Source of the DNA: Actinoplanes sp. SE50/110
Lineage (GTDB): Bacteria; Actinomycetota; Actinomycetes; Mycobacteriales; Micromonosporaceae
NCBI RefSeq assembly: GCF_900119315.1
Contig: NZ_LT827010.1
Location: 7,310,001 to 7,374,000, forward strand
Length of the DNA: 64,000 bases
Direction: 5' to 3'
Shown here piece after piece: positions 11,979 through 52,001 of the stretch; the first letter of the stretch is position 1; each line of letters starts with the position of its first letter. The notes below the pieces were generated by a model. It worked only from the letters and a program-made list of their open reading frames with translations, had not been told where the DNA came from and searched no databases. The translations under genes were made by a program, and so were the position numbers.

Positions 11979-12057
11979 CTCCTCCTCGCCGTCCCGCCTG
12001 CCACCCGCCGCGCCAAACGTTACCGGGCGGGTACGACAAGCCGCTCGCCAATGTGAG

Positions 12058-39982: not shown

Positions 39983-40171
39983 ATGACAGCCGGCGAGGAC
40001 CAGCGTGATCAGCGCTACCTCACCACCCGGATCACCGCCGACGGGCGCGACGGCCATCCCGGCGAAGCCGGGCGATGTCGGCTGGTGGTGAGCCGCGCGA
40101 TCATCGTCCGCCGGCTGTGTCGTCCCGGCCGGCCCGGATCCGAGCGCCCGGCACACCCCGCACGGCCGTGA
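39983..40171 (+). CDS. Possible small protein, unknown
   Basis: An open frame of 62 codons from ATG 39983, with G/C-rich third positions at the start (AGEDQRDQRYLTTRITADGR) and an Arg/Pro-rich end. No known family and a weak ribosome site. It may be a real short gene between two leftward genes or chance in GC-rich DNA. Confidence 0.3.
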   Translation: MTAGEDQRDQRYLTTRITADGRDGHPGEAGRCRLVVSRAIIVRRLCRPGRPGSERPAHPARP

Positions 40172-40219
40172 GTCCCCTCGGCGGCCGCCCGTTCGGCGAC
40201 GGCACTCCCCCGGGCCCGG

Positions 40220-40708
40220 TCAGTCTCCGCTGAGTACCGCTCGCAGCAGGTCGGCGAGCTGGGACCGCTGGGCCGGGGTGAGGTGGGCCAGGAGCCGCTG
40301 CTGCTCGGCGAGGCCGGCGGTGACGGCCTGGTCGGCAACCTGGAAACCCTGCTCGGTGAGGGAGACCAGGACGCCGCGGCGGTCGTCCGGGTCGGGTGAC
40401 CGGGCGACCAGGCCGGCCTTCTCCAGACGGTCGAGGCGGGCGGTGGTGCCACCGGTGCTGAGCATCATCGAGGCGGCCAGGGCGCCCGGGGACAGCCGGA
40501 AGGGCGCTCCGGAGCGACGCAGGGTGGCGAGCACGTCGAATTCGGGGCGGCCGATGCCGTACGCCGCGTAGGCGCGCTCGCCGGCGTCCGAGGCGATGCG
40601 GGCGATGCGCTGGATGCGGCCGAAGACGCCCATCGCAGTGGTTTCCAGGTCGGGGCGCTCGACGGCCCACTGGGCCAGGATCCGATCGACACCGTCGGGT
40701 TCCCTCAT
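40220..40708 (-). CDS. MarR family transcriptional regulator
   Basis: About 162 aa. The winged helix has LSPGALAASMMLSTGGTTARLDRLEKAGLVARSPDPDDRRGVLVSLT, with the DRR wing. Helices at both ends form the dimer interface. The start is ATG 40708 or GTG 40723; neither has a good ribosome site. Divergent from an EamA-type exporter gene, with an 18-bp palindrome in the 86-bp space. The usual arrangement is repression of the exporter and itself, relieved by a small ligand. Confidence 0.88.
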   Translation of the reverse strand: MREPDGVDRILAQWAVERPDLETTAMGVFGRIQRIARIASDAGERAYAAYGIGRPEFDVLATLRRSGAPFRLSPGALAASMMLSTGGTTARLDRLEKAGLVARSPDPDDRRGVLVSLTEQGFQVADQAVTAGLAEQQRLLAHLTPAQRSQLADLLRAVLSGD

Positions 40709-40755
40709 GCCGCCATTCTGCACGACCTCTCGATGACAAGCTTCTCGACACAGGT

Positions 40756-40773
40756 TATCTTGATGTCGAGATA
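40756..40773. promoter_or_regulatory. MarR-type operator
   Basis: TATCTTGATGTCGAGATA is an 18-bp palindrome with a single mismatched pair (TTGA against TCGA), between the divergent marR-like and exporter genes. Related half-sites (TCTCGATG, ACATCGAG) flank it on both sides. Confidence 0.75.
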
Positions 40774-40794
40774 CTTTACATCGAGGGAGTCGCC

Positions 40795-41781
40795 GTGCGC
40801 GTCCTGCTGATCACCGCCCTCACACCCGCGGTCTGGGGCACCACCTACGCGATCACCACGGAATTCCTGCCACCCGACCGGCCGCTGCTCGCCGGCGTCC
40901 TGCGGGCCCTGCCCGCCGGACTCCTGCTGCTGGCGATCACCCGGCAACTGCCGCGCGGCGCCTGGTGGTGGCGGTCCGCGGTCCTCGGCGCGCTGAACAT
41001 CGGGTTCTTCTTCGCGCTGCTGTTCGTCAGCGCCTACCGCCTGCCCGGCGGCATGGCGGCCGTGCTCGGGGCGGTGCAGCCACTACTGGTCGCCGGGCTG
41101 TCCACGGTCGTGCTCGGCGACCGCACCACGGCCCGTACCGTGATCGCGGGCCTGCTCGGCGCCGCCGGCGTCGCCCTCGCCGTCCTGACCGCCGCCGCCC
41201 GCCTCGACCCGATCGGCATCCTGGCCGGGCTGGCCGGTGCCGCGTCGATGGCCATCGGTCTGGTGCTGACCAAACGTTGGGGACGGCCCGGCGTCTCGCT
41301 GCTGACCGCGACCGGGTGGCAGCTCACCGCGGGCGGACTGGTCCTGCTGCCGATCATGCTGCTCGGCGAGGGGCTGCCGGCGTCACTGACCGGCCGGAAC
41401 CTGATGGGCTACGGATACCTGGCGCTGATCGGCACCGCCCTCGCCTACACCCTGTGGTTCCGCGGGCTGGACCGGCTGCCGGCCACCCGGGTCTCGCTGC
41501 TCAGCCTGCTCTCCCCGGTGACCGCGACCGTGCTGGGGTGGGCGGCGCTGGGCCAGGCGCTGACGCCGGTGCAGGTCACCGGCATGGCCCTGGCCTTCGC
41601 CGCGGTGCTGTGGGGTCAGTCATCGCCGGATCGCGGTCGTCGTCAGGGGGCCTCATCGCAGGTCCGTGTCGGTCACCACGCGACGCGGCAAGCCGGTGCG
41701 GGCGGCCCGGAGCATCCCGCGGCCGGGCGCCTCGGTGGTGGTCACCCGGCCGGGCGCGAGGCGGCGGAGCGCCGGCCTTAG
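40795..41781 (+). CDS. EamA/DMT family exporter
   Basis: Protein of 328 aa. Ten hydrophobic helices in two EamA repeats; GYGYLALIGTALAYTLWFRGL and SVTATVLGW-like text (LLSPVTATVLGWAALGQ) are typical. Helices end at about residue 275. The last 55 residues or so (from SSPDRGRRQG) are hydrophilic and unlike the family. This tail lies over the remnant of an epimerase gene on the opposite strand, so the original stop seems to have been lost. GTG 40795. Probably exports metabolites or drugs under control of the divergent MarR protein. Confidence 0.88.
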   Translation: MRVLLITALTPAVWGTTYAITTEFLPPDRPLLAGVLRALPAGLLLLAITRQLPRGAWWWRSAVLGALNIGFFFALLFVSAYRLPGGMAAVLGAVQPLLVAGLSTVVLGDRTTARTVIAGLLGAAGVALAVLTAAARLDPIGILAGLAGAASMAIGLVLTKRWGRPGVSLLTATGWQLTAGGLVLLPIMLLGEGLPASLTGRNLMGYGYLALIGTALAYTLWFRGLDRLPATRVSLLSLLSPVTATVLGWAALGQALTPVQVTGMALAFAAVLWGQSSPDRGRRQGASSQVRVGHHATRQAGAGGPEHPAAGRLGGGHPAGREAAERRP

Positions 41782-41826
41782 CGGAGCGGTCAGCGGGTAA
41801 GCGGCGTTGTACCACCCCGGCGCTCC
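41653..41826 (-). pseudogene. C-terminal remnant of an NAD-dependent epimerase/dehydratase-like gene
   Basis: The leftward frame reads PGWYNAAYPLTAPLRPALRR, then LAPGRVTTTEAPGRGMLRAA and RTGLPRRVVTDTDLR before its stop. The VTTTE..GR.ML.. pattern is the C-terminus of an actinobacterial extended-SDR group. The rest of the gene (about 150 residues) is absent. It overlaps the aberrant tail of the exporter gene. Confidence 0.5.
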
Positions 41827-41830
41827 GGGG

Positions 41831-41869
41831 TTTTCCACAGGCGGGTGGTTCGGCGCCCGGTTGTCCACA
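41831..41869. promoter_or_regulatory. Two DnaA-box-like sequences
   Basis: TTTTCCACA at 41831-41839 and TTGTCCACA (exact actinobacterial DnaA box) at 41861-41869, 30 bp apart and in the same orientation, each followed by GG. This is not oriC: no dnaA, dnaN or recF is near. Confidence 0.45.
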
Positions 41870-41891
41870 GGCCGGGTGGTCCATCCCGAAA

Positions 41892-41914
41892 ACGTCGTAC
41901 CCCCGGCCTAGGGT
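41892..41914 (+). promoter_or_regulatory. PafBC (RecA-NDp)-like promoter of the SWIM gene
   Basis: CGTCGTAC at 41893-41900, eight bases, then TAGGGT at 41909-41914, and only six bases to the GTG start. The layout fits TGTCR-N11-TAnnnT with one mismatch and implies a leaderless mRNA. A nearly identical sequence (GTCGTACCCC) precedes the MoxR operon. Confidence 0.55.
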
Positions 41915-41920
41915 CGTCCC

Positions 41921-44734
41921 GTGCCCGCCGAACGATGGTCCATCGCCCAGGCCGAGTCGATCGCTCCCGACGCCTCGGCGCTCAAGCGTGCCCGCTCCGT
42001 GGCCGGGCAGTTCGGCCCCGTCGGGCTGCTCGACGACGTCCTCTGGGGACTGTGCCGGGGCTATCAGGTCGCCGCCGACCTGTCCGGCCCCGCGTTCAAG
42101 TGCTCCTGCCCGAGTTTCCAGACGCCCTGCAAGCATGCCGTCGGCCTGGTGCTGCGCTGGGCCGAGGCCGGCGCCGGGCAGGATCCCGCGCCCGACTGGG
42201 TGACCCGGTGGCAGGCCGCGCGCGCCGCCCGGGCGAAACCGGGTCCGGCGGCCCCGCCCGACCCGGTGGCCGCCGCCAAGCGCGCCCGGGCGCGCGCCGA
42301 GCGGGTCGCCGGCGGCATGACCGAGCTGCGCCGCTGGCTCGACGACCAGGTCGAGCAGGGCCTCGCCGGGCTGGGGCGGCGCGGGCGCCAGGCGTTCGAG
42401 CCGATGGCGGCCCGGCTGGTCGACGCGCAGGCGCCGGGGGCGGCCGGTGCGGTCCGGCGCCTCGGTGACATCGCCGGGATCGGCCCGCAGTGGGCCGACC
42501 GGCTCCTCGCCGAGCTGGCCACACTGCATCTGCTGGTCGCCGGGCACGACCGGTTCGACGCGCTGGACCCGGCGACGGCCGCCACCGTCCGCTCCCGGAT
42601 CGGTTTCCCCACGGCGACCGAGGAGGTGCTGGCCGGGCCCCGGGTCACCGACCGCTGGCAGGTGCTCGGCCAGATCGACACCGACGACGGCCCGCTGACC
42701 ACCCGGCGCACCTGGTTGCACGGCTCGTCGACGTCCCGGTTCGCGCTGGTGCTGTCGTTCGCGGCGCCGGGCCAGACGCTCGCCGCCGACCTGGTGCCGG
42801 GCACCGAGTTCCGCGGCGACCTCTGCTTCTATCCCGGCTCCGCGCCGCTGCGGGCGCTGGTCGCCGAGCGCGCCAGCGCCGCCGAGCCGTTCGGCTCGCC
42901 GGACGGCGCCGGGTCGGTGCGCGCCGCTCTCTCCCGGTGGGCGTCGCTGCTGGCCGCCGAGCCTTTCCGGTACGACGCACCGGTGCTGCTGGCGGGCGTC
43001 AGCCCCGCCGAGGGGGGCTTCCTGGTGGACGGGTCGGGTGACGCGTTGCCCCTGGCCGCCGGGCATCGTGAGCCGTGGTGGCTGCTGGCGGCCGCGGGCG
43101 CCCGGCCGGCCGCGGTCGCCGCCGAGTGGTCGCCGGCCGGCTTGCGCCCGCTGGCGGCCTGGGCCGACGGCCACTTCGTGGCGGCCGCGCCGCCGATGCC
43201 CGACGCCGGCGCGCCGCGGGCGGCCGAGCTGCCACCCGAGCTGCTGGCCGCGGCGCTGGTCGGCACGGCACGCCGGCCGTGGCACGCGGCCTCGGTGCGG
43301 GTCGGACCGGTCGCGGTCGAGGTCGGTCAGGCGTCGCTGCAGGCGGGTCCGGCCGCGGCCCTGCTGGATGCCGCGGCCGTCGCGCTGACCGCGCGGCGGG
43401 CCGGGGTGCAGCCGGACACGACCCGGTCCCCCATCGAGCCGGCTCCGGCCGAGACCGATCCCCCGCTGCCGGTCGCGGCCGGGGTGCGCCTGAGCCGCAT
43501 CCTGCGCGGCGGTGCCCCGGGCGGCGCCCACCTGGAGCAGGAGCTGCTGGCCCAGTGGCTCGCCGCGGCGGCGCGCCGGGGTGGCGTGGTGCCGCCGGTG
43601 CTGCTGCCCGCGCTGCTCGACGCCGGCCGGCGCACCACGACGATCCGCGCCGACGCGGCCCGGGTCGCCGGGCGCCGGGGTGCCTGGCTGGCCGAGCGGC
43701 GTGCCGACTGGGGCTGGCTGTTCGACGAGGCCACGCCGGTCACCGTGGTCGACTGGACGACCGCGACCGGCACCGAGCGGCTGGGACACCTGATCACCCT
43801 GCGCCGGTCCGAGCCGGCGCACGCGCGGCGGCTGGTGGAGAGCACCTGGGGCGCCGACTCCTCGGAGAACCGCGCCCGGTTCCTCGGCGCCTTCACCGAC
43901 GGGCTGTCCCTCGACGACGAGGAGCTGCTGGAGCGGGCCCTCGACGACCGGCGCAAGGAGGTCCGGCAGACCGCCGTCGACCTGCTCCGCCGCCTGCCCG
44001 GGGCGGCACTCGGCGAGCGGATGCGCGACCGGGCGCACGCCGCGGTGCGCCTGGCCGCCGACTCTGCGCGGCTCCTGGTGACGCCGCCGGCCGAGCTGGA
44101 CGCCGGGCTGCGACGTGACGGGGTGAGCGCGACCCCGGCCCACGGCACCGGGGTCGGCGCCTGGCTGCTGGAGGAGGTGGTCGCCGGGACTCCGCTCACC
44201 TCGTGGGCCGCCCTGGAGCCGACCGGTTACCTCGCGCTGGCCCGGGGAAACGACTGGGTGACGCCGCTGCTGCACGGCTGGGCCAAGGCCGCCATCACCC
44301 AGGGCGACGCCCGCTGGGCTGCGGCGCTGCTGGCCGGCGACTCCGGCATGCTGCGCGAGGGGGTTCGCTGGGAACTGCACCTGGTGCTCCCGTCCGACAC
44401 ATTGGCCCGGCTGGCCGCCGAGGCGCTGCGTGCCGAGGACGCCGCGGCGCACCGACTGCTGGCACTGCATCCCGGGCCGTGGCCGGAACCACTGAGCGTG
44501 ACGGTGCTGGAGACGATTCTGCGCCGGGCGCGTCACGACCGGCACACCTGGCAGCTCGGCGAGCTGTGCCGGACCGCCGCGCTCGCCATGCCCCCGGCGT
44601 ATGCGGATCTCGCCGGCCGGCTGGCCGCTCAGCTGGAGCCGGAGGTGGACCCGAGCCGGGTGCGGCCGATCGCCGACCTGGCGCGGACGCTGGCGTTCCG
44701 TGAGGAGATGCTGCGCGAGTTGAGCGAGCCGTGA
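41921..44734 (+). CDS. SWIM zinc-finger protein with DUF5691-like C-terminus
   Basis: Protein of 937 aa. The SWIM finger is at 61-72 (CSCPSFQTPCKH: Cys61, Cys63, Cys70, His72), embedded in the usual GYQVAADLSGPAFKCSCPS context. Residues from about 430 form a long helical, HEAT-like region rich in Ala/Leu/Arg (DDRRKEVRQTAVDLLRRLPG), matching the DUF5691 type. SWIM domains bind DNA or protein. The gene lies 157 bp before the MoxR-DUF5682-VWA operon on the same strand with a matching promoter, so it is probably part of one system. The start is leaderless-like (no Shine-Dalgarno). Confidence 0.85.
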   Translation: MPAERWSIAQAESIAPDASALKRARSVAGQFGPVGLLDDVLWGLCRGYQVAADLSGPAFKCSCPSFQTPCKHAVGLVLRWAEAGAGQDPAPDWVTRWQAARAARAKPGPAAPPDPVAAAKRARARAERVAGGMTELRRWLDDQVEQGLAGLGRRGRQAFEPMAARLVDAQAPGAAGAVRRLGDIAGIGPQWADRLLAELATLHLLVAGHDRFDALDPATAATVRSRIGFPTATEEVLAGPRVTDRWQVLGQIDTDDGPLTTRRTWLHGSSTSRFALVLSFAAPGQTLAADLVPGTEFRGDLCFYPGSAPLRALVAERASAAEPFGSPDGAGSVRAALSRWASLLAAEPFRYDAPVLLAGVSPAEGGFLVDGSGDALPLAAGHREPWWLLAAAGARPAAVAAEWSPAGLRPLAAWADGHFVAAAPPMPDAGAPRAAELPPELLAAALVGTARRPWHAASVRVGPVAVEVGQASLQAGPAAALLDAAAVALTARRAGVQPDTTRSPIEPAPAETDPPLPVAAGVRLSRILRGGAPGGAHLEQELLAQWLAAAARRGGVVPPVLLPALLDAGRRTTTIRADAARVAGRRGAWLAERRADWGWLFDEATPVTVVDWTTATGTERLGHLITLRRSEPAHARRLVESTWGADSSENRARFLGAFTDGLSLDDEELLERALDDRRKEVRQTAVDLLRRLPGAALGERMRDRAHAAVRLAADSARLLVTPPAELDAGLRRDGVSATPAHGTGVGAWLLEEVVAGTPLTSWAALEPTGYLALARGNDWVTPLLHGWAKAAITQGDARWAAALLAGDSGMLREGVRWELHLVLPSDTLARLAAEALRAEDAAAHRLLALHPGPWPEPLSVTVLETILRRARHDRHTWQLGELCRTAALAMPPAYADLAGRLAAQLEPEVDPSRVRPIADLARTLAFREEMLRELSEP

Positions 44735-44814
44735 GGGGTGTGCCGGGGGTCGATCGTGCGGGCCGGGCGTGCCGTGCGATCGGTCGGCCGGGGCGCCGGG
44801 GCAGCGCCGGGAAA

Positions 44815-44836
44815 TGTCGTACCCCGGCGGTAGTTT
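44815..44836 (+). promoter_or_regulatory. PafBC (RecA-NDp)-like promoter of the MoxR operon
   Basis: TGTCG at 44815-44819, TAC, eight bases, TAGTTT at 44831-44836. This is a full match to the invariant positions TGTCR and TAnnnT, 55 bp upstream of the GTG. Confidence 0.6.
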
Positions 44837-44891
44837 GCAGTTCGAGCCAGCTATCGGGCGGGCCGGTGGGCCCGGAGACTCAGGAGTTCGA

Positions 44892-45953
44892 GTGACCGCT
44901 CTTCGACCGCACGCCGAGGATCAGTATGCCGACGAGCTGACCCGGCTGGCCGCCGCCGACGACCGACCCCGCCCGCCCGGGTGGCGGTTGTCGCCCCAGG
45001 CCGTGGTGACCTATCTGCTCGGCGACGGCGCCAAGATCACCCCGAAGTATGTGGGGCCGCGCCGCCTGATCGAGGTCGCCGTCTCCACCCTCGCCACCGA
45101 TCGGGCGCTGCTCCTGCTGGGCGTTCCCGGCACCGCCAAGACCTGGGTCTCCGAGCATCTGGCCGCCGCCATCTCCGGCGACTCCACGCTGCTGGTGCAG
45201 GGCACCGCCGGCACCGCCGAGGAGGCCATCCGGTACGGGTGGAACTATGCCCGTCTGCTCGCCGAGGGCCCGACCGCCGCGGCGCTGGTGCCGAGCCCGA
45301 TCATGCGGGCCATGCGGGGTGGCTCCATCGCCCGGCTGGAGGAGCTCACCCGCGTCCCGTCCGACGTGCAGGACGCTCTGATCACCATCCTCTCGGAGAA
45401 GACGCTGCCGATCCCGGAGCTGGGCGACGAGGTGCAGGCGCAGCGCGGCTTCAACCTGATCGCCACCGCCAACGACAGGGACCGCGGGGTGAACGAGTTG
45501 TCCAGCGCCCTGCGGCGGCGGTTCAACACGGTGGTGCTGCCGGTTCCGGCCAACGCCGACGACGAAGTCGAGATCGTGGCGCGCCGGGTGGCGCAGCTCG
45601 GCCGGTCGCTGGAGCTGCCCGAGGTGCCGGCCGCGCTCGACGAGATCCGGCGGGTGGTCACCGTGTTCCGCGAGCTGCGGAGCGGGCTGACCGAGGACGG
45701 CCGCACCAAGCTCAAGTCGCCGACCGGTACGCTCTCCACCGCCGAGGCGATCTCGGTGATCACCAACGGGATGGCGCTGGCCGCCCACTTCGGCGACGGC
45801 ACCCTGCACCCGGGCGACGTCGCGGCCGGCATCGTCGGCGCGGTGATCAAGGACCCCGTCTCCGACACCGTCGTCTGGCGGGAATACCTGGAGACCGTGG
45901 TCCGGGAGCGGTCCGACTGGCTCGATTTCTACCGGGCCGCGCGCGATGCCTGA
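44892..45953 (+). CDS. MoxR-type AAA+ ATPase
   Basis: Protein of 353 aa. Walker A GVPGTAKT at 77-84. The Walker B equivalent is GGSIARLEELTRVPSDVQDAL, where family members usually have a DE pair before hxR and here LEEL stands. Sensor 1 is LIATANDRDRGV, and the arginine-containing LSSALRRRFNTVVLP is typical of MoxR. The lid domain is at the C-terminus. MoxR ATPases work as chaperones with VWA proteins, and a VWA gene closes this operon. GTG 44892 with AGGAG. The end overlaps the DUF5682 start by 8 bp (ATGCCTGA). Confidence 0.92.
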   Translation: MTALRPHAEDQYADELTRLAAADDRPRPPGWRLSPQAVVTYLLGDGAKITPKYVGPRRLIEVAVSTLATDRALLLLGVPGTAKTWVSEHLAAAISGDSTLLVQGTAGTAEEAIRYGWNYARLLAEGPTAAALVPSPIMRAMRGGSIARLEELTRVPSDVQDALITILSEKTLPIPELGDEVQAQRGFNLIATANDRDRGVNELSSALRRRFNTVVLPVPANADDEVEIVARRVAQLGRSLELPEVPAALDEIRRVVTVFRELRSGLTEDGRTKLKSPTGTLSTAEAISVITNGMALAAHFGDGTLHPGDVAAGIVGAVIKDPVSDTVVWREYLETVVRERSDWLDFYRAARDA

Positions 45954-48240
45954 GAGGTTCTACGGCATCCGGCACCACGGGCCCGGCTCGGCCCGGGCGG
46001 TGGTGCGGGAGCTGACGGCGCAACAGCCGACGGTGCTGCTCGTGGAGGGCCCGCCGGAGGCTGACGAGCTGGTGCGCTGGGTGGCCGGCAGCGACCTGGA
46101 GCCGCCGGTCGCGCTGCTGGGCTATGCGGTGGACGATCCGGGGCGGGCCGCGTTCTGGCCGTTCGCGGTCTTCTCGCCGGAGTGGCAGGCGATCCGGTGG
46201 GCGGTGGACAACGAGGTGCCGGTCCGCTTCTTCGACCTGCCCTACGCGTATCGGGTCGGCGACGAAGACGGTGGTCCCGCCCCGGCCGAGGCTTCCCCGC
46301 GGGTCGGCGATTCTCCCCCGGTCGAGGGTGACCAGCCGTCCCGTGGGGACGGCGACGCTGAGGCCGGCGGCGACATGGACCGGACGGCCGCGCCCGGACG
46401 GCCGGTGGATCCGATCGGTGAGCTGGCCGCCGCGGCGGGGTATGACGATCCGGAGCGCTGGTGGGAGGACGTGGTCGAGCATCGCGGGATGCCGGCTTTC
46501 GAGGCGATCGCGGAAGCAATGACGGCGATCCGGGAAGGCGCCGCGGAGGATCCCGAGGACCTTCCGCGGGAGGCCTACATGCGCACGGTCCTGCGGGAGG
46601 TCCGGCGCAAGCACGACAACATCGCGGTCGTCTGCGGGGCGTGGCACGTCCCGGCGCTGACCCGGAAGGTGCCGGCCAAGGATGACAACGCGCTGCTCAA
46701 GGGCCGGCGCAAGGGCAAGGTCGCGTTCACCTGGGTGCCCTGGACGTATGGTCGGCTGGCCTCCTGGTCCGGGTACGGCGCCGGGGTCGGTTCCCCGGGG
46801 TGGTATCACCACCTGTTCACCAGCGCGGACTCGGTCGTGCCGCGGTGGCTGGTGGACGCCGCCGGCGTGCTGCGCGCCGAGGGTGTCCCCACCTCCTCGG
46901 CGCACGTGATCGAGGCGACCCGGCTGGCCGAGGCGCTCGCCGCGCTGCGGGGGCGGCCGCTGGCCGGGCTGGCCGAGGTGACCGAGGCCGCCGAGGCGGT
47001 GATGTGCGACGGGGAGCCGCTGCGCACGGCTCTGATCAATCGGCGGCTGGTGGTCGGCGAGCGGCTCGGCTCGGTGCCGGACGAGATGCCGGCCGTTCCG
47101 CTGGCTCGGGACTTGGCCGCCCAGCAGCGGAGCCTGCGGCTCAAACCCGAAGCCACCGAACGGGAGCTGAGACTCGACCTGCGCAAGGAGATCGACCTGC
47201 GGCGCAGCCGGCTCCTGCACCGGTTGCGGACCCTGGCCGTGCCGTGGGGCGAGCCGGCTCCCGGGCGCCGCGGGACGGGCACCTTCCGCGAGGAATGGGT
47301 GCTGCGGTGGCAGCCGGAGTTCGCGGTGCGGCTCGTCGAGGGCAGCATGTGGGGCACCACGGTGGCCGCCGCGGCGACCGCCCGGGTGACCCGGCGGGCG
47401 AGCACGGCGCAGACGCTGGCCGAGGTGACCGCGCTGCTGGAAACGTGCCTGCTGGCCGATCTCCGGGATGCGTATCCGCGGGTTCTCACCGCGCTGGACA
47501 CCCGCGCCGCGCTGGACGCCGACATTCACCACCTGATGGCGGCGCTCCCCGCCCTGGCCCGGACGCTGCGGTACGGCGATGTGCGGCGCACCGACGTCGG
47601 CGGTCTCGCGACGGTCACCGCCAGTCTGCTGAAACGGATCTGCGCCGGACTGCCGTCGGCGGCCGGTTCGCTCTCCGACGAGGCGGCCAGGCAGCTGCGG
47701 GACGGCGTGGACGGCGTTCATCAGGCGGTCGGCCTGCTCGCCGACGACGATCTGCGAGAATTGTGGCTGGTGACCCTGGAGTCGCTGGCCCGCCGGCCGG
47801 ACCTGCACGGGTTGCCGGCCGGGCGACTGACCCGGCTGCTGCTGGACGCTGACCGGCTGGATGCCGGCGAGGTCCGCCGCCGTCTGCGGCTGCCGCTGAC
47901 CGCCGGGACACCACCGGCGCACGGGGCCGCCTGGGTGGAGGGGTTCCTGGCCGGCGGCGGGCTGCTGCTGGTGCACGACGATGCGCTGCTCACGCTGGTC
48001 GACGAGTGGCTCGCCGACGTGCCGGCGGAGGGGTTCGATGATGTGTTGCCGCTGCTGAGGCGTACCTTCGGGACATTCGACGCGGGCGAGCGGCGGGCGA
48101 TCGGTGAGCGGGTGGCCGGTCCGCGGGCCGGAGCGGCGCAGGCCGCAGCCGTGACGATCGACGAGAAACGGGCAGTGTCCGTGCTGCCCGTGCTGGGTGC
48201 CCTGCTGGGGCGCGAGATCCGGGTCCGGGAGGACGCATGA
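45946..48240 (+). CDS. DUF5682 family protein
   Basis: Protein of 764 aa. The N-terminus ERFYGIRHHGPGSARAVVRE and LLVEGPPEADELVRWV are the family signature. Then come FFDLPYAY, an acidic low-complexity insertion (about 105-145), VVCGAWHVPAL, and a long C-terminal region rich in helices. The His/Asp-rich N-terminal part suggests an enzyme or nucleotide-binding fold related to TraB/ChaN-like proteins, but no activity is known. Translation is coupled to the MoxR gene before it and, by an ATGA overlap, to the repeat protein after it. Confidence 0.85.
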   Translation: MPERFYGIRHHGPGSARAVVRELTAQQPTVLLVEGPPEADELVRWVAGSDLEPPVALLGYAVDDPGRAAFWPFAVFSPEWQAIRWAVDNEVPVRFFDLPYAYRVGDEDGGPAPAEASPRVGDSPPVEGDQPSRGDGDAEAGGDMDRTAAPGRPVDPIGELAAAAGYDDPERWWEDVVEHRGMPAFEAIAEAMTAIREGAAEDPEDLPREAYMRTVLREVRRKHDNIAVVCGAWHVPALTRKVPAKDDNALLKGRRKGKVAFTWVPWTYGRLASWSGYGAGVGSPGWYHHLFTSADSVVPRWLVDAAGVLRAEGVPTSSAHVIEATRLAEALAALRGRPLAGLAEVTEAAEAVMCDGEPLRTALINRRLVVGERLGSVPDEMPAVPLARDLAAQQRSLRLKPEATERELRLDLRKEIDLRRSRLLHRLRTLAVPWGEPAPGRRGTGTFREEWVLRWQPEFAVRLVEGSMWGTTVAAAATARVTRRASTAQTLAEVTALLETCLLADLRDAYPRVLTALDTRAALDADIHHLMAALPALARTLRYGDVRRTDVGGLATVTASLLKRICAGLPSAAGSLSDEAARQLRDGVDGVHQAVGLLADDDLRELWLVTLESLARRPDLHGLPAGRLTRLLLDADRLDAGEVRRRLRLPLTAGTPPAHGAAWVEGFLAGGGLLLVHDDALLTLVDEWLADVPAEGFDDVLPLLRRTFGTFDAGERRAIGERVAGPRAGAAQAAAVTIDEKRAVSVLPVLGALLGREIRVREDA

Positions 48241-48974
48241 GCCAGAGTTCTGAGGACGCCGAGCTGTTTTCCCACTCGGCCGAGCAGCCGGCGGGCGGGG
48301 AGACGCCTGCGCTGCCGACGATGCTGCAGTTCTCGCATCCGACGCAGGAGGCGGTGATCGGCTCCGCCTCGCACGCGGCCGAGCCGGCGGGGCGGCTGTT
48401 CTCCCACCCGGGTCCGGCGCGGGGCGCGACGGAGTTCGATGAGATGTCCGGTTGGGCGGGCCAGGCCGGCGGCGGGCGTGGCGGCAACCGGAGCGGAAAC
48501 CGGGACCGCGGCCCGGGTGGACGGGGCACCGGAGGACGCGGCGCCGGCGGACGTGGGACCGACGGGCGCGGCGCCGACGGGCGCGCGGCGGGCGGACGCG
48601 GAGCTGACGGTCGCGGCGCCGACGGGCGCAACGCGGAGGGACGCGGCGGCGGACGCGCGGCGAGTGGACGCGGCGCCGACGGGCGCGCGGCGAGTGGACG
48701 CGGCGCGGAAGGACGCGCGGCCGGCCCGCGTGCGGCCGAGGGACATCCGGCCGGCGAACGCGGTGGCGATCGGCAAGCGGCGGGCGGGCGGGCGGCCGAC
48801 CGGCCCGGCGGCACCGGCGGCCGCGGGGACGACGGACGACAGACGACGGGACGAAGCGGGCGCAGGGAAGGGGGCGATCGGGCTGGCCGGGCGGTTGACG
48901 GTCCTACGGGCGCGGAGAGTCGCCGTGAGGGCACAGGCGGGCGAGCACGTCGAACCGGGCGCGCCGATGGCTGA
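48237..48974 (+). CDS. Arg/Gly-rich disordered repeat protein of the MoxR-VWA operon
   Basis: Protein of 245 aa starting in the ATGA that ends the DUF5682 gene. It ends in an 8-bp ATGGCTGA overlap with the VWA start. The first 75 residues contain three LFSH/FSHP segments (ELFSHSAEQ, LQFSHPTQ, LFSHPGPARG). The rest is a low-complexity array built on GRGADGRx units, with R, G, A and D making up nearly all residues, like RGG boxes. A second frame is also open here, but only this one fits the overlaps on both sides. I know no family for it. It may be a linker or condensate-forming partner of the ATPase. Confidence 0.65.
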   Translation: MSQSSEDAELFSHSAEQPAGGETPALPTMLQFSHPTQEAVIGSASHAAEPAGRLFSHPGPARGATEFDEMSGWAGQAGGGRGGNRSGNRDRGPGGRGTGGRGAGGRGTDGRGADGRAAGGRGADGRGADGRNAEGRGGGRAASGRGADGRAASGRGAEGRAAGPRAAEGHPAGERGGDRQAAGGRAADRPGGTGGRGDDGRQTTGRSGRREGGDRAGRAVDGPTGAESRREGTGGRARRTGRADG

Positions 48975-50184
48975 CGAGACCACGTCGACCACGGAGAGCA
49001 CCGCCGGGGCGGCGCGGGAGCGGATGCGGCGGTGGCGGCTGGTGCTGGGTGGGGCGGCGGAGGAGTCGCTCGGCAAGGCGGAGGGGCGGGACGGGGCGGT
49101 CGACGGGGCGCTGGCGGCGCTCTACGACTCCGGCGGGGACGGGGACGGGACCGGCAGCAAGCGGTCCGCGGGGCTGGGCGGGTCGGCGCCGCGGGTCGCG
49201 CGGTGGCTCGGCGACATCCGGGAGTACTTTCCGGGCACCGTCGTGCAGGTGATGCAGGCGGACGCGATCGAGCGGCTCGACCTGACCCGACTGCTGCTGG
49301 AGCCGGAGATGCTGGCGGCGGTCGAGCCGGACGTGCACCTGGTCGGCACGCTGCTCTCGCTGAACAAGGTGATGCCCGACGCCACCAAGGACGCCGCCCG
49401 GCAGGTGGTCCGGTCGGTGGTCGAGCAACTGGAGAAACGGATCGCCCAGCAGACCCGGGCCGCGGTCTCCGGGGCGCTGAACCGGGCCGCCCGGATCAAC
49501 CGGCCGCGGCAGGCCGACATCGACTGGGACCGGACCATCCGGGCGAACCTCAAGCACTACCAGGCCGAGCATCGGACGGTCATCCCGGAACGGTTGATCG
49601 GTTACGGGCGGCGGAGCAGCGCGGTGCACCGTGACGTGGTGCTCTGCGTGGACCAGTCCGGGTCGATGGCGTCCTCGGTGGTGTTCGCCGGGGTGTTCGC
49701 GGCGGTGCTGGCGTCGATGCGGTCACTGCGGACGTCACTCGTCGTCTTCGACACGGCCGTGGTGGACCTCACCGATCAGCTCAGCGACCCGGTCGAGGTG
49801 CTGTTCGGGACTCAGCTGGGCGGCGGGACGGACATCAACCGGGCTGTGGCGTACAGCCAGCAATTGATCTCCCGGCCGCGGGACAGCATCTTCGTGCTGA
49901 TCAGCGACCTGTACGAGGGTGGTGTCCGGGACGAGATGCTGCGCCGGGTGGCGGAGATGACCGCCGCCGGGGTGCAGGTGGTGGCGCTGCTGGCGCTCTC
50001 CGACGAGGGCGCGCCGGCCTACGATCACGAGAACGCGGCGGCCCTGGCGGCGCTGGGTGTGCCGGCGTTCGCGTGCACGCCCGACGCATTCCCCGAGCTG
50101 ATGGCGGCGGCCATCGAACGCCGCGACCTGACCGCGTTCGCCGAACGCTTCGCCGACCGCAAAGCCACCGGAGCCGCCCTGTGA
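48967..50184 (+). CDS. VWA domain protein (CoxE-like partner of MoxR)
   Basis: Protein of 405 aa. The N-terminal 200 residues are helical (MRRWRLVLGGAAEESLG, LLSLNKVMPDATKDAARQVV). The VWA domain starts at about 222 with the MIDAS motif DQSGSM (229-234), then GGGTDINRAV and ILISD-like FVLISDLYEGG. Metal-binding residues are therefore complete. ATG 48967 overlaps the repeat-protein stop. The open frame continues upstream to 48439 in GC-rich repeat DNA, but that part is out of step with the operon and not conserved-looking. It is expected to pair with the MoxR ATPase. Confidence 0.88.
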   Translation: MADETTSTTESTAGAARERMRRWRLVLGGAAEESLGKAEGRDGAVDGALAALYDSGGDGDGTGSKRSAGLGGSAPRVARWLGDIREYFPGTVVQVMQADAIERLDLTRLLLEPEMLAAVEPDVHLVGTLLSLNKVMPDATKDAARQVVRSVVEQLEKRIAQQTRAAVSGALNRAARINRPRQADIDWDRTIRANLKHYQAEHRTVIPERLIGYGRRSSAVHRDVVLCVDQSGSMASSVVFAGVFAAVLASMRSLRTSLVVFDTAVVDLTDQLSDPVEVLFGTQLGGGTDINRAVAYSQQLISRPRDSIFVLISDLYEGGVRDEMLRRVAEMTAAGVQVVALLALSDEGAPAYDHENAAALAALGVPAFACTPDAFPELMAAAIERRDLTAFAERFADRKATGAAL

Positions 50185-50186
50185 CC

Positions 50187-50330
50187 GGCCGCTAACTGCT
50201 GACCGGCCGCCGACCCGCCGCACACCGGCCGCCGACTCGCCGCTGCACCCGCCGCACACCGGCCGCCGACTCGCCGCTGCACCCGCCGCAGACCGGCCGC
50301 CCACTCGCCGCAGACCGGCCCGAACCGGCC
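50187..50330. repeat. 34-bp tandem repeat behind the VWA gene
   Basis: CACACCGGCCGCCGACTCGC recurs with a 34-bp period (50221, 50255, 50289), with decayed copies reaching back to the stop codon at 50184. Confidence 0.8.
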
Positions 50331-50405
50331 GCAGACTGGCACCTGCACCTGCACCCGCGGGAGATCGGCTGCCAACCAGCCGCTGATCGGCGCCGATCTC
50401 CCCGG

Positions 50406-50492
50406 TCACCGTATCCCGGTGAGTAGTACCCGCAGGTAGCGATCGATCCGCTCCTCCGGCGGACCGCCGATCGCAGCGCGAAGACGATCCCA
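50406..50492 (-). pseudogene. C-terminal remnant of a TetR-type regulator
   Basis: The leftward frame reads WDRLRAAIGGPPEERIDRYL, then RVLLTGIR and a stop. This is the last-helix pattern of TetR regulators. The DNA-binding part, which should lie to the right, is missing, and SDR remnant sequence on the other strand begins there instead. Confidence 0.5.
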
Positions 50493-50498
50493 CCCGGG

Positions 50499-50794
50499 AT
50501 GGCGAAGACCGGCCTGGACCGGGACGCGTCACCGGCCGACCGCGCCGTCGGCGCCCTGCTGGGACTCGTTCTGAGCCGACCGGTCGACGAGGCGGTGACC
50601 CCGATCCTCTATGCCGCGACCGACACCGCGGCGCCCACCGGCTGCCACATCGGCCCCGGCCGGCCGTTCCGCCCCCGCGGCCGACCTTCGAGAGGCTGAC
50701 CGGACCGGCGACGGATCCGGTTCTCGCACGACGGTTGTGGGCGCGCTCCGCGGAGCTCACCGGGATCGGCACCGGACTCGCGGACCGGCGGTGA
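50499..50794 (+). pseudogene. C-terminal remnant of a short-chain dehydrogenase, with frameshift
   Basis: Frame 1 reads DEAVTPILYAATDTAAPTGC, then HIGPGRPFRPRG. A different frame continues with FERLTGPATDPVLARRLWAR, then SAELTGIG and a stop at 50792-50794. Together these make the usual end of an SDR of the retinol/protochlorophyllide type (YAAT, GP.G, ARRLW..S.ELTG). The Rossmann half and catalytic YxxxK are absent. Confidence 0.6.
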
Positions 50795-51343
50795 TCAGCT
50801 GGGGCGGCCGCCACCACCGAGGTAGCCGGCCAGCCCCGCCGCAACCGCCGCGTCCCGGAGCTGCTCCGCGTGATGCCTGATCACCGGGACGGCTTTCGCG
50901 GCAAGCGCCTTCACCGACTCGTCGGAGCCGTTGGCGGCCTCGTCGGAGGCCAGTCGCAGGGCCGCGCGGTGCCCGGCCAGCTGGGTGGTGATGTAGTACT
51001 CGTCGAACGTGTCGGTGCCGGCCACCTCGTACCGGTGAGCCAGGGCCTGCTGCTCTTCGGTGGGGTCGGCGGGCAGGAACACGCGCAGCTCACGGGCCGT
51101 CAGGTAGAGGTCGGCGTCCATCCGGATGTGGTCGCGTAGGAAGGTGGCGGCCAGTTCCTTCACCGTCGGGTCGGTGGTCTTGGTCCAGGCGATCCGGCCG
51201 GCCGCGATCTCGGCGAGGTTGACCTGGTGAGCGGCCTTTAGGAAGGCGGCGTCCGACTCGGAGGCGGCGGCCTGCGCGGCGGTGGCCGGGAGAACCAGCA
51301 GCCCGGCCAGGCCGAGCATCGCGGGGATACGGCGGAAAAGCAT
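50795..51343 (-). CDS. DUF4142 family secreted protein
   Basis: Protein of 182 aa. Signal peptide 1-26 (MLFRRIPAMLGLAGLLVLPATAAQA). The mature part is a ferritin-like four-helix bundle typical of DUF4142: DAAFLKAAHQVNLAEIAAGRIA, VKELAATFLRDH, DTFDEYYITTQLAGHRAALRLA, KAVPVIRHHAEQLRDAA. Metal or redox function is suspected for the family but not shown. Its stop directly abuts the end of the SDR remnant. Confidence 0.88.
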   Translation of the reverse strand: MLFRRIPAMLGLAGLLVLPATAAQAAASESDAAFLKAAHQVNLAEIAAGRIAWTKTTDPTVKELAATFLRDHIRMDADLYLTARELRVFLPADPTEEQQALAHRYEVAGTDTFDEYYITTQLAGHRAALRLASDEAANGSDESVKALAAKAVPVIRHHAEQLRDAAVAAGLAGYLGGGGRPS

Positions 51344-51422
51344 CTCAACTCCTCAAATAGGTCATTGCCACCCTAGCCAAGGAGATGTGCGAATTATTCG
51401 CTTTCGCCGGTAAACCTCGGAA

Positions 51423-51644
51423 TCACTGCGTCCAGCGCAGGAAGCGGTCGAAGAGCTCCGGCGCCGGCACCTGCGGCATGTCCCGCGCGGCCTCTTCCAG
51501 GTAGTCCCACATCTTGACGGCGAGATCCATCCGATTGTGCCCCCGTCCGAGCGTCTCCCGCGCCGGCGGGCACGGCCACGGCTGCGCGCAGACCCGGCAG
51601 TCCCAGGACGGACGGGCGGGAAGGTGCTCCGTGCCCTCGGTCAC
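51423..51644 (-). CDS. Small conserved-looking cytoplasmic protein
   Basis: Protein of 73 aa from GTG 51644. Features: SWDCRVCAQPWPCPPARE (two CxxC-like groups that could bind zinc), then MDLAVKMWDYLEEAARDMP and ELFDRFLRWTQ. Short proteins of this type are frequent in Micromonosporaceae and relatives, with no assigned role. The start overlaps a still smaller upstream frame by GTGA. Confidence 0.65.
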   Translation of the reverse strand: MTEGTEHLPARPSWDCRVCAQPWPCPPARETLGRGHNRMDLAVKMWDYLEEAARDMPQVPAPELFDRFLRWTQ

Positions 51645-51748
51645 GTGCGACTCCCCTCGCCGGCGACAAACGGCGGGACGGCCCCCGGGATCCGCCCGCC
51701 AACCTCACCCGTGCACCACACGATGCGCGCGTCGATCAGGCCGGTCAA
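51641..51748 (-). CDS. Possible coupled micro-ORF
   Basis: A 35-codon frame from a TTG with AGAGGGA about 7 bp upstream, ending in the GTGA that starts the next small gene. The peptide is IDARIVWCTGEVGGRIPGAV, then PPFVAGEGSRT. The ribosome site and overlap favour translation; no family is known. Confidence 0.35.
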   Translation of the reverse strand: MTGLIDARIVWCTGEVGGRIPGAVPPFVAGEGSRT

Positions 51749-52001
51749 CGTCCGTTCCCTCTGCGGGTGACAGCTCGGACCGAAAGCCGACAGCACGCAT
51801 CCGCAGCAGGCGGTGGCGCACGATCCGCCGGGCAGAGGGGGCAGCGGCGCGCGAGGGCGCAGGAGCGACGAACCAGAAAGCCGAAGAAAGCCCGGTATGT
51901 CCTGATCTTTGGAACGATGAACACCGAAACGGCCGCACACCAGGCCCGCAGGCAACACCGAGCCGTCCACGACGGACCACCGAGCGACGGAGGAGGGCGA
52001 C
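51645..52001. other. Gap upstream of the first REW-LG paralogue
   Basis: Apart from the micro-ORF at its left end, it holds the shared motif GTATGTCCTGATCTTTGGAA at 51895-51914. There is also the GGAGGAGGG ribosome site just before 52002. No other gene seen. Confidence 0.5.
51895..51919 (+). promoter_or_regulatory. Conserved upstream motif, copy 1
   Basis: GTATGTCCTGATCTTTGGAA, continuing CGATG, 83 bp before the ATG of the gene at 52002. It agrees in 22 of 25 positions with the sequence before the paralogue at 57919. A promoter or activator site is likely. Confidence 0.5.

Follow-up and report, generated by a model that had tools for sequence, protein, structure and literature searches.

The closest described relative of the system considered here is found in Deinococcus. 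According to the available text of two reports, a putative five-gene operon of Deinococcus deserti, Deide_18730-18690, encodes MoxR-like and von Willebrand factor A (VWA) proteins behind a radiation-response motif (De Groot et al. 2009, PMC2669436). The operon is radiation-induced under IrrE/DdrO control, carries a DdrO/RDRM site, was named ddrTUVWX with function unknown, and has homologs in several other Deinococcus species (Blanchard et al. 2017, PMC5552922). A cousin set, yehL-yehM-yehP-yehQ (MoxR, DUF5682, VWA, and SWIM), is annotated in one row in Escherichia coli K-12. Here, we analyze a SWIM/DUF5691-MoxR-DUF5682-VWA module in a 64,000-nucleotide stretch of the Actinoplanes sp. SE50/110 genome (assembly GCF_900119315.1, contig NZ_LT827010.1, positions 7,310,001 to 7,374,000), hereafter the window; positions without a genome or locus label are counted within it. 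A preliminary description, made from the sequence, presented this module as a candidate undescribed system. That label does not hold: the same genes, in the same order, make up the radiation-induced ddrTUVWX, and the window module is the actinobacterial form of that operon.

The locus consists of five genes on the + strand. The first (41921-44734, GTG start, 937 amino acids) specifies a SWIM zinc finger (CSCPSFQTPCKH) fused to DUF5691 and equates to ddrT plus ddrU. A ddrV-like MoxR-type AAA+ ATPase gene follows (44892-45953, GTG start, 353 amino acids), with Walker A motif GVPGTAKT and Walker B region RLEELTR. There is an in-frame GTG farther upstream, at 44769, but close relatives, for example that of locus L083, align with all 353 residues. 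Next come the ddrW-like DUF5682 gene (45946-48240), which overlaps the MoxR gene by 8 base pairs (bp; ATGCCTGA), an Arg/Gly-rich open reading frame (ORF; 48237-48974), which overlaps the DUF5682 gene by 4 bp (ATGA), and the ddrX-like VWA_CoxE gene (48967-50184), which overlaps the Arg/Gly ORF by 8 bp (ATGGCTGA). Thus, the ORFs bear out the arrangement first described, five genes on one strand with the last four overlapping by 8, 4, and 8 bp, as well as the claim that the VWA protein has an intact metal site (MIDAS), its DQSGSM, GGGTD, and SDL motifs all being present. Pfam matches, with their expect values (E), are DUF5691 (4e-137), SWIM (5e-4; 20 bits against a cut-off of 19.6), AAA_5 (3e-39), DUF5682 (4e-275), and VWA_CoxE (4e-55). 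The Pfam scan of the Arg/Gly ORF gave no match, the NCBIfam scan gave none over its cut-off, and Rfam gave none within window positions 40000-52000.

The window thus has the ddrTUVWX-type order SWIM, DUF5691, MoxR, DUF5682, VWA, with the first two genes fused. In the D. deserti operon, SWIM is likewise first, MoxR third, and a CoxE-like VWA last, as given in the available text of both reports (PMC2669436, PMC5552922), and, judging from gene order, Deide_18720 would encode DUF5691 and Deide_18700 DUF5682. Unlike the window, Deinococcus has SWIM and DUF5691 as separate genes and no Arg/Gly-rich gene. In Deinococcus taeanensis the order is SWIM, DUF5691, AAA, small ORF, DUF5682, VWA, and the same gene set is carried by Hymenobacter and Rhizobium. 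The small uncharacterized gene between MoxR and DUF5682, seen in D. taeanensis (L163:6759-6995) and Hymenobacter (L164:6365-6976), has no counterpart in the window. On a Hymenobacter radiodurans plasmid (L184), the operon is annotated piecemeal, with DUF5682 as three overlapping ORFs and VWA uncalled, unlike in Hymenobacter sp. HDW8. Among the matches listed by our literature searches, whose coverage left out most subscription journals, none dealt with the actinobacterial operon; DUF5682 was named in no paper and ddrTUVWX in one.

A maximum-likelihood tree of 52 MoxR proteins, unrooted and with long branches flagged, separates the two described relatives. All 38 window-type MoxR proteins, including those of Deinococcus, Hymenobacter, Rhizobium, and one cyanobacterium, share one side of a 100/100 branch, and E. 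coli YehL lies outside it, the tree being unrooted and long-branched; hence yehL-M-P-Q is a cousin of the window module. Comparison with the window proteins gives 2e-76 for YehL, 6e-29 for YehM, and 2e-69 for YehP, and similarity between YehQ and the window SWIM protein is undetectable. The E. coli set, of unknown function, also differs in that DUF5691 was not found in E. coli and in that WGR/DUF4132-type genes lie close by.

The preliminary description called for a survey of whether SWIM/DUF5691, DUF5682, MoxR, and VWA genes co-occur. We ran this survey on 296 actinobacterial genomes. DUF5682 is present in 21 of them, and DUF5691 exceeds its cut-off in 18; in 3 more, DUF5691 is sub-threshold and DUF5682 is absent. 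Every one of the 18 DUF5691 genomes also carries DUF5682, with MoxR and VWA in the neighborhood (hypergeometric P of 5e-26 by genome and 2e-13 by genus, deeper kinship being uncorrected). Of the three DUF5682 genomes lacking DUF5691, G204 and G124 carry other types of locus, and in G259 the contig ends. We then compared 99 loci: the window, 18 survey loci (including the truncated one of G259), and 80 from public genomes. The last group comprises the best 80 of 551 confirmed loci (of at least 592), chosen as the best DUF5682 matches, and because they are the best scoring of the 551 they lean toward close relatives. MoxR, DUF5682, and VWA occur together in 94 of the 99 loci, and SWIM or DUF5691 in 96; the five misses in the first case and the exceptions in the second are contig ends or cut stretches. 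These genomic patterns support the view that SWIM/DUF5691, MoxR, DUF5682, and VWA constitute one co-conserved module, and run counter to the lack of co-conservation that would have refuted the preliminary description. The five-part form proposed earlier therefore stands in altered composition: SWIM, DUF5691 (fused here), MoxR, DUF5682, and VWA are conserved, and the Arg/Gly ORF falls outside the conserved five.

The Arg/Gly ORF begins with approximately 70 residues containing three FSH(S/P) motifs and continues as an Arg/Gly-rich disordered tail. An inverted codon-position GC content in the repeat part (0.73 at third positions, 0.89 at first), together with the existence of close relatives that lack the ORF, raised the suspicion that it is an artefact. 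We rejected this reading because the N-terminal part recurs in nine other genomes of the genus and, where inspected, at the same place in the operon; matches to its first 75 residues occur in 10 of the 60 genomes of the genus, the window's included. In all eight loci inspected (the window and seven of the nine others, with G342 and G330 left out), the ORF sits between DUF5682 and VWA, and across these eight the FSH(S/P) motifs are shared and the tail is variable. By tblastn, it was not found in the other 98 loci, and in 10 close relatives that lack it VWA adjoins DUF5682 or is separated from it by a short tail. Judged by this recurrence, the ORF is a genuine lineage accessory and not a part of the conserved module.

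A link between the module and the DNA-damage response emerges from its promoter. Immediately before SWIM lies the element ACGTCGTACCCCCGGCCTAGGGT (41892-41914, + strand), a variant of GTCR-N11-TANNNT. Its -10-like TAGGGT ends 7 bp 5' of the SWIM GTG (window 41892-41923), and for this reason the SWIM mRNA may be leaderless; in many relatives, the element sits at -26 to -36 before SWIM. A second copy, ATGTCGTACCCCGGCGGTAGTTT (44814-44836, + strand), lies 78 bp before the MoxR start. Both sites contain GTCGTACCCC (at 41894 and 44816), in agreement with the earlier proposal that promoter similarity ties the SWIM gene to the operon. From its spacing, we take the element to be a RecA-nondependent promoter (RecA-NDp) of the PafBC type, with TTGTCRGTG-N8-TANNNT as its presumed consensus. 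Relative to TTGTCR-N11-TANNNT, the window element is a variant, with GTCG-TAC in place of GTCR-GTG and the same spacing as the recA site; upstream of recA in this genome is TTGTCATAC-N8-TACCGT. The genome also encodes a PafC-type regulator (HTH_PafC, E 1e-40, G000:C1:5704198-5704539). The RecA-NDp and PafBC regulon is described without printed consensus letters in the available text of PMC8223512.

The element is enriched before SWIM across relatives. Scanning from -110 to +25 of SWIM in 91 loci, with random segments as background, we found the strict form TTGTCRGTGN8TANNNT in 36 loci (background 0.15%) and TGTCRN11TANNNT in 67 (background 0.32%). A relaxed form, GTCRN11TANNNT, is present in 74 of the 91 loci (background 0.49%), including the window and all ten of its nearest relatives (11/11), mostly as GTCGTAC in these, and a series of sites at the same place, TTGTCAGTG, TTGTCGGTG, CTGTCGGAC, and TTGTCGTAC, links the variants. 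Where SWIM and MoxR are divergent, the TTGTCRGTG core precedes MoxR too in 36 of 38 loci; the figure for same-direction loci is 0 of 53. Genome-wide, the consensus (at most 1 mismatch) outnumbers its reversed control by 51 to 10 in this genome (G000), 15 to 7 in G204, 73 to 12 in G235, 39 to 14 in G050, 111 to 3 in G161, 152 to 8 in G128, and 104 to 8 in G193, and the window's variant, TGTCGTACCCCSN4TA (at most 2 mismatches), has 106 genome sites against 37 for the reversed control. The available text of PMC9380542 states that an initial search missed the Mycobacterium smegmatis PafBC motif in Streptomyces venezuelae; our consensus counts in three genomes of a Streptomyces-like genus (g8) speak otherwise, enrichment being strong in G161, G128, and G193, and S. 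venezuelae itself being outside the set.

Genes downstream of the element also point toward DNA repair. There are 29 other sites (at most 1 mismatch), and 28 were scanned; one (L070), with no plausible downstream ORF, was left out. Seven of the 28 precede genes for UvrA, a Y-family polymerase, an NAD-dependent ligase, an RNase_T/GIY-YIG nuclease, a family-A polymerase, an Lhr helicase, and a RadA-like ATPase; an eighth precedes the gene for a DEAD/DSHCT helicase, whose substrate may be RNA. DNA-repair or DNA-metabolism genes account for 0 of 20 control ORFs, which were the best ORFs of evenly spaced 2.5-kb stretches and not promoter-adjacent ones (one-sided P 0.016 for seven sites, 0.008 for eight), with an E limit of 0.001 for some site ORFs and 1e-5 for the rest and the controls. 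The remaining 20 or 21 sites lie before unrelated genes, including those for a WYL-domain regulator and a WGR protein, or inside genes. Another TTGTCGTACCC site, with TA correctly placed, occurs elsewhere in the window (12021-12038, - strand; L202), where it precedes a gene encoding the catalytic domain of a phosphatidate phosphatase APP1. The promoter data support assigning the SWIM promoter to the SOS-independent, PafBC/RecA-NDp-type DNA-damage class, and induction by damage would presumably follow. The hint of a DNA-damage role in the preliminary description thus gains backing from the promoter class.

Damage-linked control is a further likeness to Deinococcus ddrTUVWX, with the difference that control there is by DdrO/RDRM instead of a PafBC-type site. 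Our RDRM search covered the D. taeanensis locus, where 0.26 sites would be expected, and found one RDRM-like site with 2 mismatches, 20 bp ahead of SWIM. With PafBC-type sites in actinobacteria and DdrO in Deinococcus, the same module comes under unrelated damage regulators. Cyanobacteria may provide a third case. Using a presumed cyanobacterial LexA consensus, we examined six cyanobacterial loci with SWIM. A LexA-like box with at most 2 mismatches occurs within 400 bp upstream of SWIM in two of the six (background 2%), namely L158 (1 mismatch) and L193 (2 mismatches), which are close relatives; L194 has a box with 3 mismatches, and L190, L192, and L198 have none. This is a hint only that LexA might control the module in some cyanobacteria.

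The N-terminus of DUF5682 reads GIRHHGPGSA...VLVEGPP...CGAWHVPAL, which we take to recall TraB/Tiki-type proteins. Across 33 diverse DUF5682 rows, R9, H10, H11, E34, E79, D97, E178, E209, and H234 are invariant, and adding YehM and three rows from other phyla leaves them so. A whole-length model (predicted local distance difference test, pLDDT, 80.9) returned, in both Foldseek and VIA-align, rows of helical-repeat proteins matching residues 427-758; the modeled C-terminal part thus resembles helical-repeat proteins. Because these matches filled the whole-length rows, the N-terminal domain was modeled alone. AlphaFold2 on residues 1-295 gave pLDDT 80.8 and a predicted template modeling score of 0.80. 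The ten best VIA-align rows for this domain comprise three for a Tetrahymena complex IV subunit (Z 9.5-10.3, family unstated), ChaN (Z 9.2, root-mean-square deviation 4.8 over 152), HopBA1 (8.2), EreC (7.6 and 7.5), and the Bacillus cereus succinoglycan protein BcR135 (7.1), followed by a drop to 5.5 or less. Seven of the 10 top rows are EreA/ChaN-fold members by the fold list in the available text of PMC7979712, Z values of 7-10 being middling. The same text assigns a common fold to ChaN, HopBA1, EreC, and the B. cereus proteins, and identifies H50, E78, and H289 of EreC as the residues holding the catalytic water (PMC7979712). In DUF5682, the invariant His-His, Glu, and His are arranged in this order too. 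Residues of approximately 1-295 are thus tentatively predicted to adopt the EreA/ChaN (Tiki) fold, and the head is a candidate hydrolase. Unlike ChaN, EreC, HopBA1, and BcR135, the DUF5682 head is joined to helical repeats and resides in a MoxR-VWA operon, and no significant sequence match connects it to them. Specifically, among 33 DUF5682 members the Pfam models ChaN (best E 0.008) and TraB (best 0.011) each match weakly in 2, Glyco_transf_4 is equally good in 3, and PDB sequence searches with DUF5682 and domain profile A3 gave chance-level matches only.

Natural fusions connect DUF5682 to VWA. A single ORF matches both in six loci of another type (L050 and L052-L056). One example, a 1333-amino acid fusion (L054, 8047-12048), lies beside a MoxR gene and has Pfam matches to DUF5682 at residues 61-1078 and to VWA_CoxE at 1107-1328. 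These fusions suggest that the two proteins touch, and that DUF5682 and VWA are physical partners. The fusion loci, which come from Streptomyces-like genomes, represent a second system type. Additional types exist. An actinomycete yehI-L-M-P-Q-like operon (L057:3938-12535) encodes WGR-DUF4132, MoxR, DUF5682, VWA, and YehQ-like proteins, with TTGTCAGTGGCCCCCATTACTGT directly before its first gene. In the Actinoplanes genome itself, another MoxR and another VWA adjoin a second DUF5682 match, a distant one (L058, G000:C1:5481001-5501000), a type shared with L059-L062; three of these five loci have a strict RecA-NDp-type site, and L058 is without one.

We put at about an even chance the proposal that the module is an AAA+ machine, induced by DNA damage, with a target near damaged DNA that it remodels or cleaves. 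In this proposal, DNA damage would act through a PafBC-class regulator, the class being read from sequence, to induce the SWIM promoter and the second site before MoxR. MoxR would form an ATPase ring, as MoxR biology leads one to expect, with VWA_CoxE as its substrate adaptor and DUF5682 physically paired with VWA, as the fusions suggest. SWIM-DUF5691 could be the targeting part, its zinc finger recognizing nucleic acid or nucleoprotein. Remodeling of the target by MoxR-VWA would be followed by its hydrolysis or modification by the DUF5682 head, the fold being predicted and the chemistry putative. Speculatively, the target would be placed at damaged DNA and could be, for example, a stalled or cross-linked protein. 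The Arg/Gly-rich protein would be an optional lineage add-on.

Several observations weigh against this proposal. The relaxed promoter form was chosen only once sites had been seen, and it is missing upstream of SWIM in 17 of 91 loci. When TA is required, MoxR upstreams are at background (2/96, one of which is the window), making the window's second promoter unusual. The alphaproteobacteria Rhizobium and Methylobacterium show no LexA-type excess (GAACN7GAAC 10 versus a chance mean of 13, and 6 versus 8). Foldseek with residues 1-295 found no PDB match at E <= 0.001 (best E 0.055), and catalysis by DUF5682 is putative. Finally, the patchy spread, with DUF5682 in 21 of 296 genomes, is as compatible with an accessory or conflict system as with repair.

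The last point leads to the rival that survives best, which we nonetheless judge unlikely: a damage-triggered conflict system, antiphage or abortive, in which the promoter senses DNA stress caused by phage or damage and MoxR-VWA arms a DUF5682 effector against the cell or the invader. Beyond the patchy distribution, occurrence on plasmid-type replicons of several phyla speaks for it, as does the broader association of MoxR-vWA systems with biological conflict discussed in the available text of PMC7159879. The ternary conflict systems treated there share the MoxR and vWA core with the window, and the terms SWIM, YehM, DUF5691, TIKI, and WGR are missing from the main text as available (PMC7159879). 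Unlike those systems, window-type loci show no variable sensor or effector: from actinobacteria to Deinococcus, Hymenobacter, Rhizobium, and cyanobacteria, the conserved parts keep one architecture, and no exchange of an effector is seen. Moreover, PADLOC models gave no convincing match to any of the five proteins (best E 0.008, over 29 AAA residues), and bpMoxR, the Pfam MoxR model of ternary conflict systems, matched below its cut-off only.

Less probable still is a cofactor-maturation chaperone like NorQ/NorD or CoxD/CoxE, in which MoxR-VWA would insert a metal or heme and the ChaN-like DUF5682 head would handle it. The VWA protein belongs to the CoxE family, the predicted head resembles heme-binding ChaN (Z 9.2) and has invariant His and acidic residues, and NorQD is reported to insert a metal. 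Yet the conserved set holds no metalloenzyme gene, and DNA-damage promoters would be an odd form of control for such a chaperone. Least probable is a general stress chaperone whose damage-promoter likeness merely reflects the breadth of this promoter class in actinobacteria. In its favor, the element also stands before many non-repair genes (20 or 21 of 28 sites). Against it are the near-fixed place of the element before SWIM across many families and the control of the Deinococcus homolog by an unrelated damage regulator.

Here, we have connected an actinobacterial operon to a gene set that is itself already known, as ddrTUVWX, and that has no assigned function. What look new are the PafBC-type promoter link, the prediction of an EreA/ChaN-like DUF5682 head, and the genus-level FSH/Arg-Gly protein. 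In D. deserti, the operon belongs to the genes that radiation induces strongly, yet it has been functionless since 2009; E. coli yehLMPQ is likewise functionless. The damage-promoter link in actinobacteria, together with a predicted hydrolase-type fold that has named candidate residues, makes this orphan gene set a testable hypothesis, and convenient laboratory strains exist in Streptomyces, Deinococcus, and E. coli K-12. More broadly, and tentatively, as a possibility we think rather doubtful in its full extent, a widespread damage machine may have been recruited separately by PafBC-type regulators in actinobacteria, by DdrO in Deinococcus, and perhaps by LexA in some cyanobacteria, with an AAA+ ring feeding proteins located at damaged DNA to an EreA/ChaN-fold hydrolase. 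If true, the bacterial DNA-damage response would possess a protein-processing arm of a new kind, driven by ATP.

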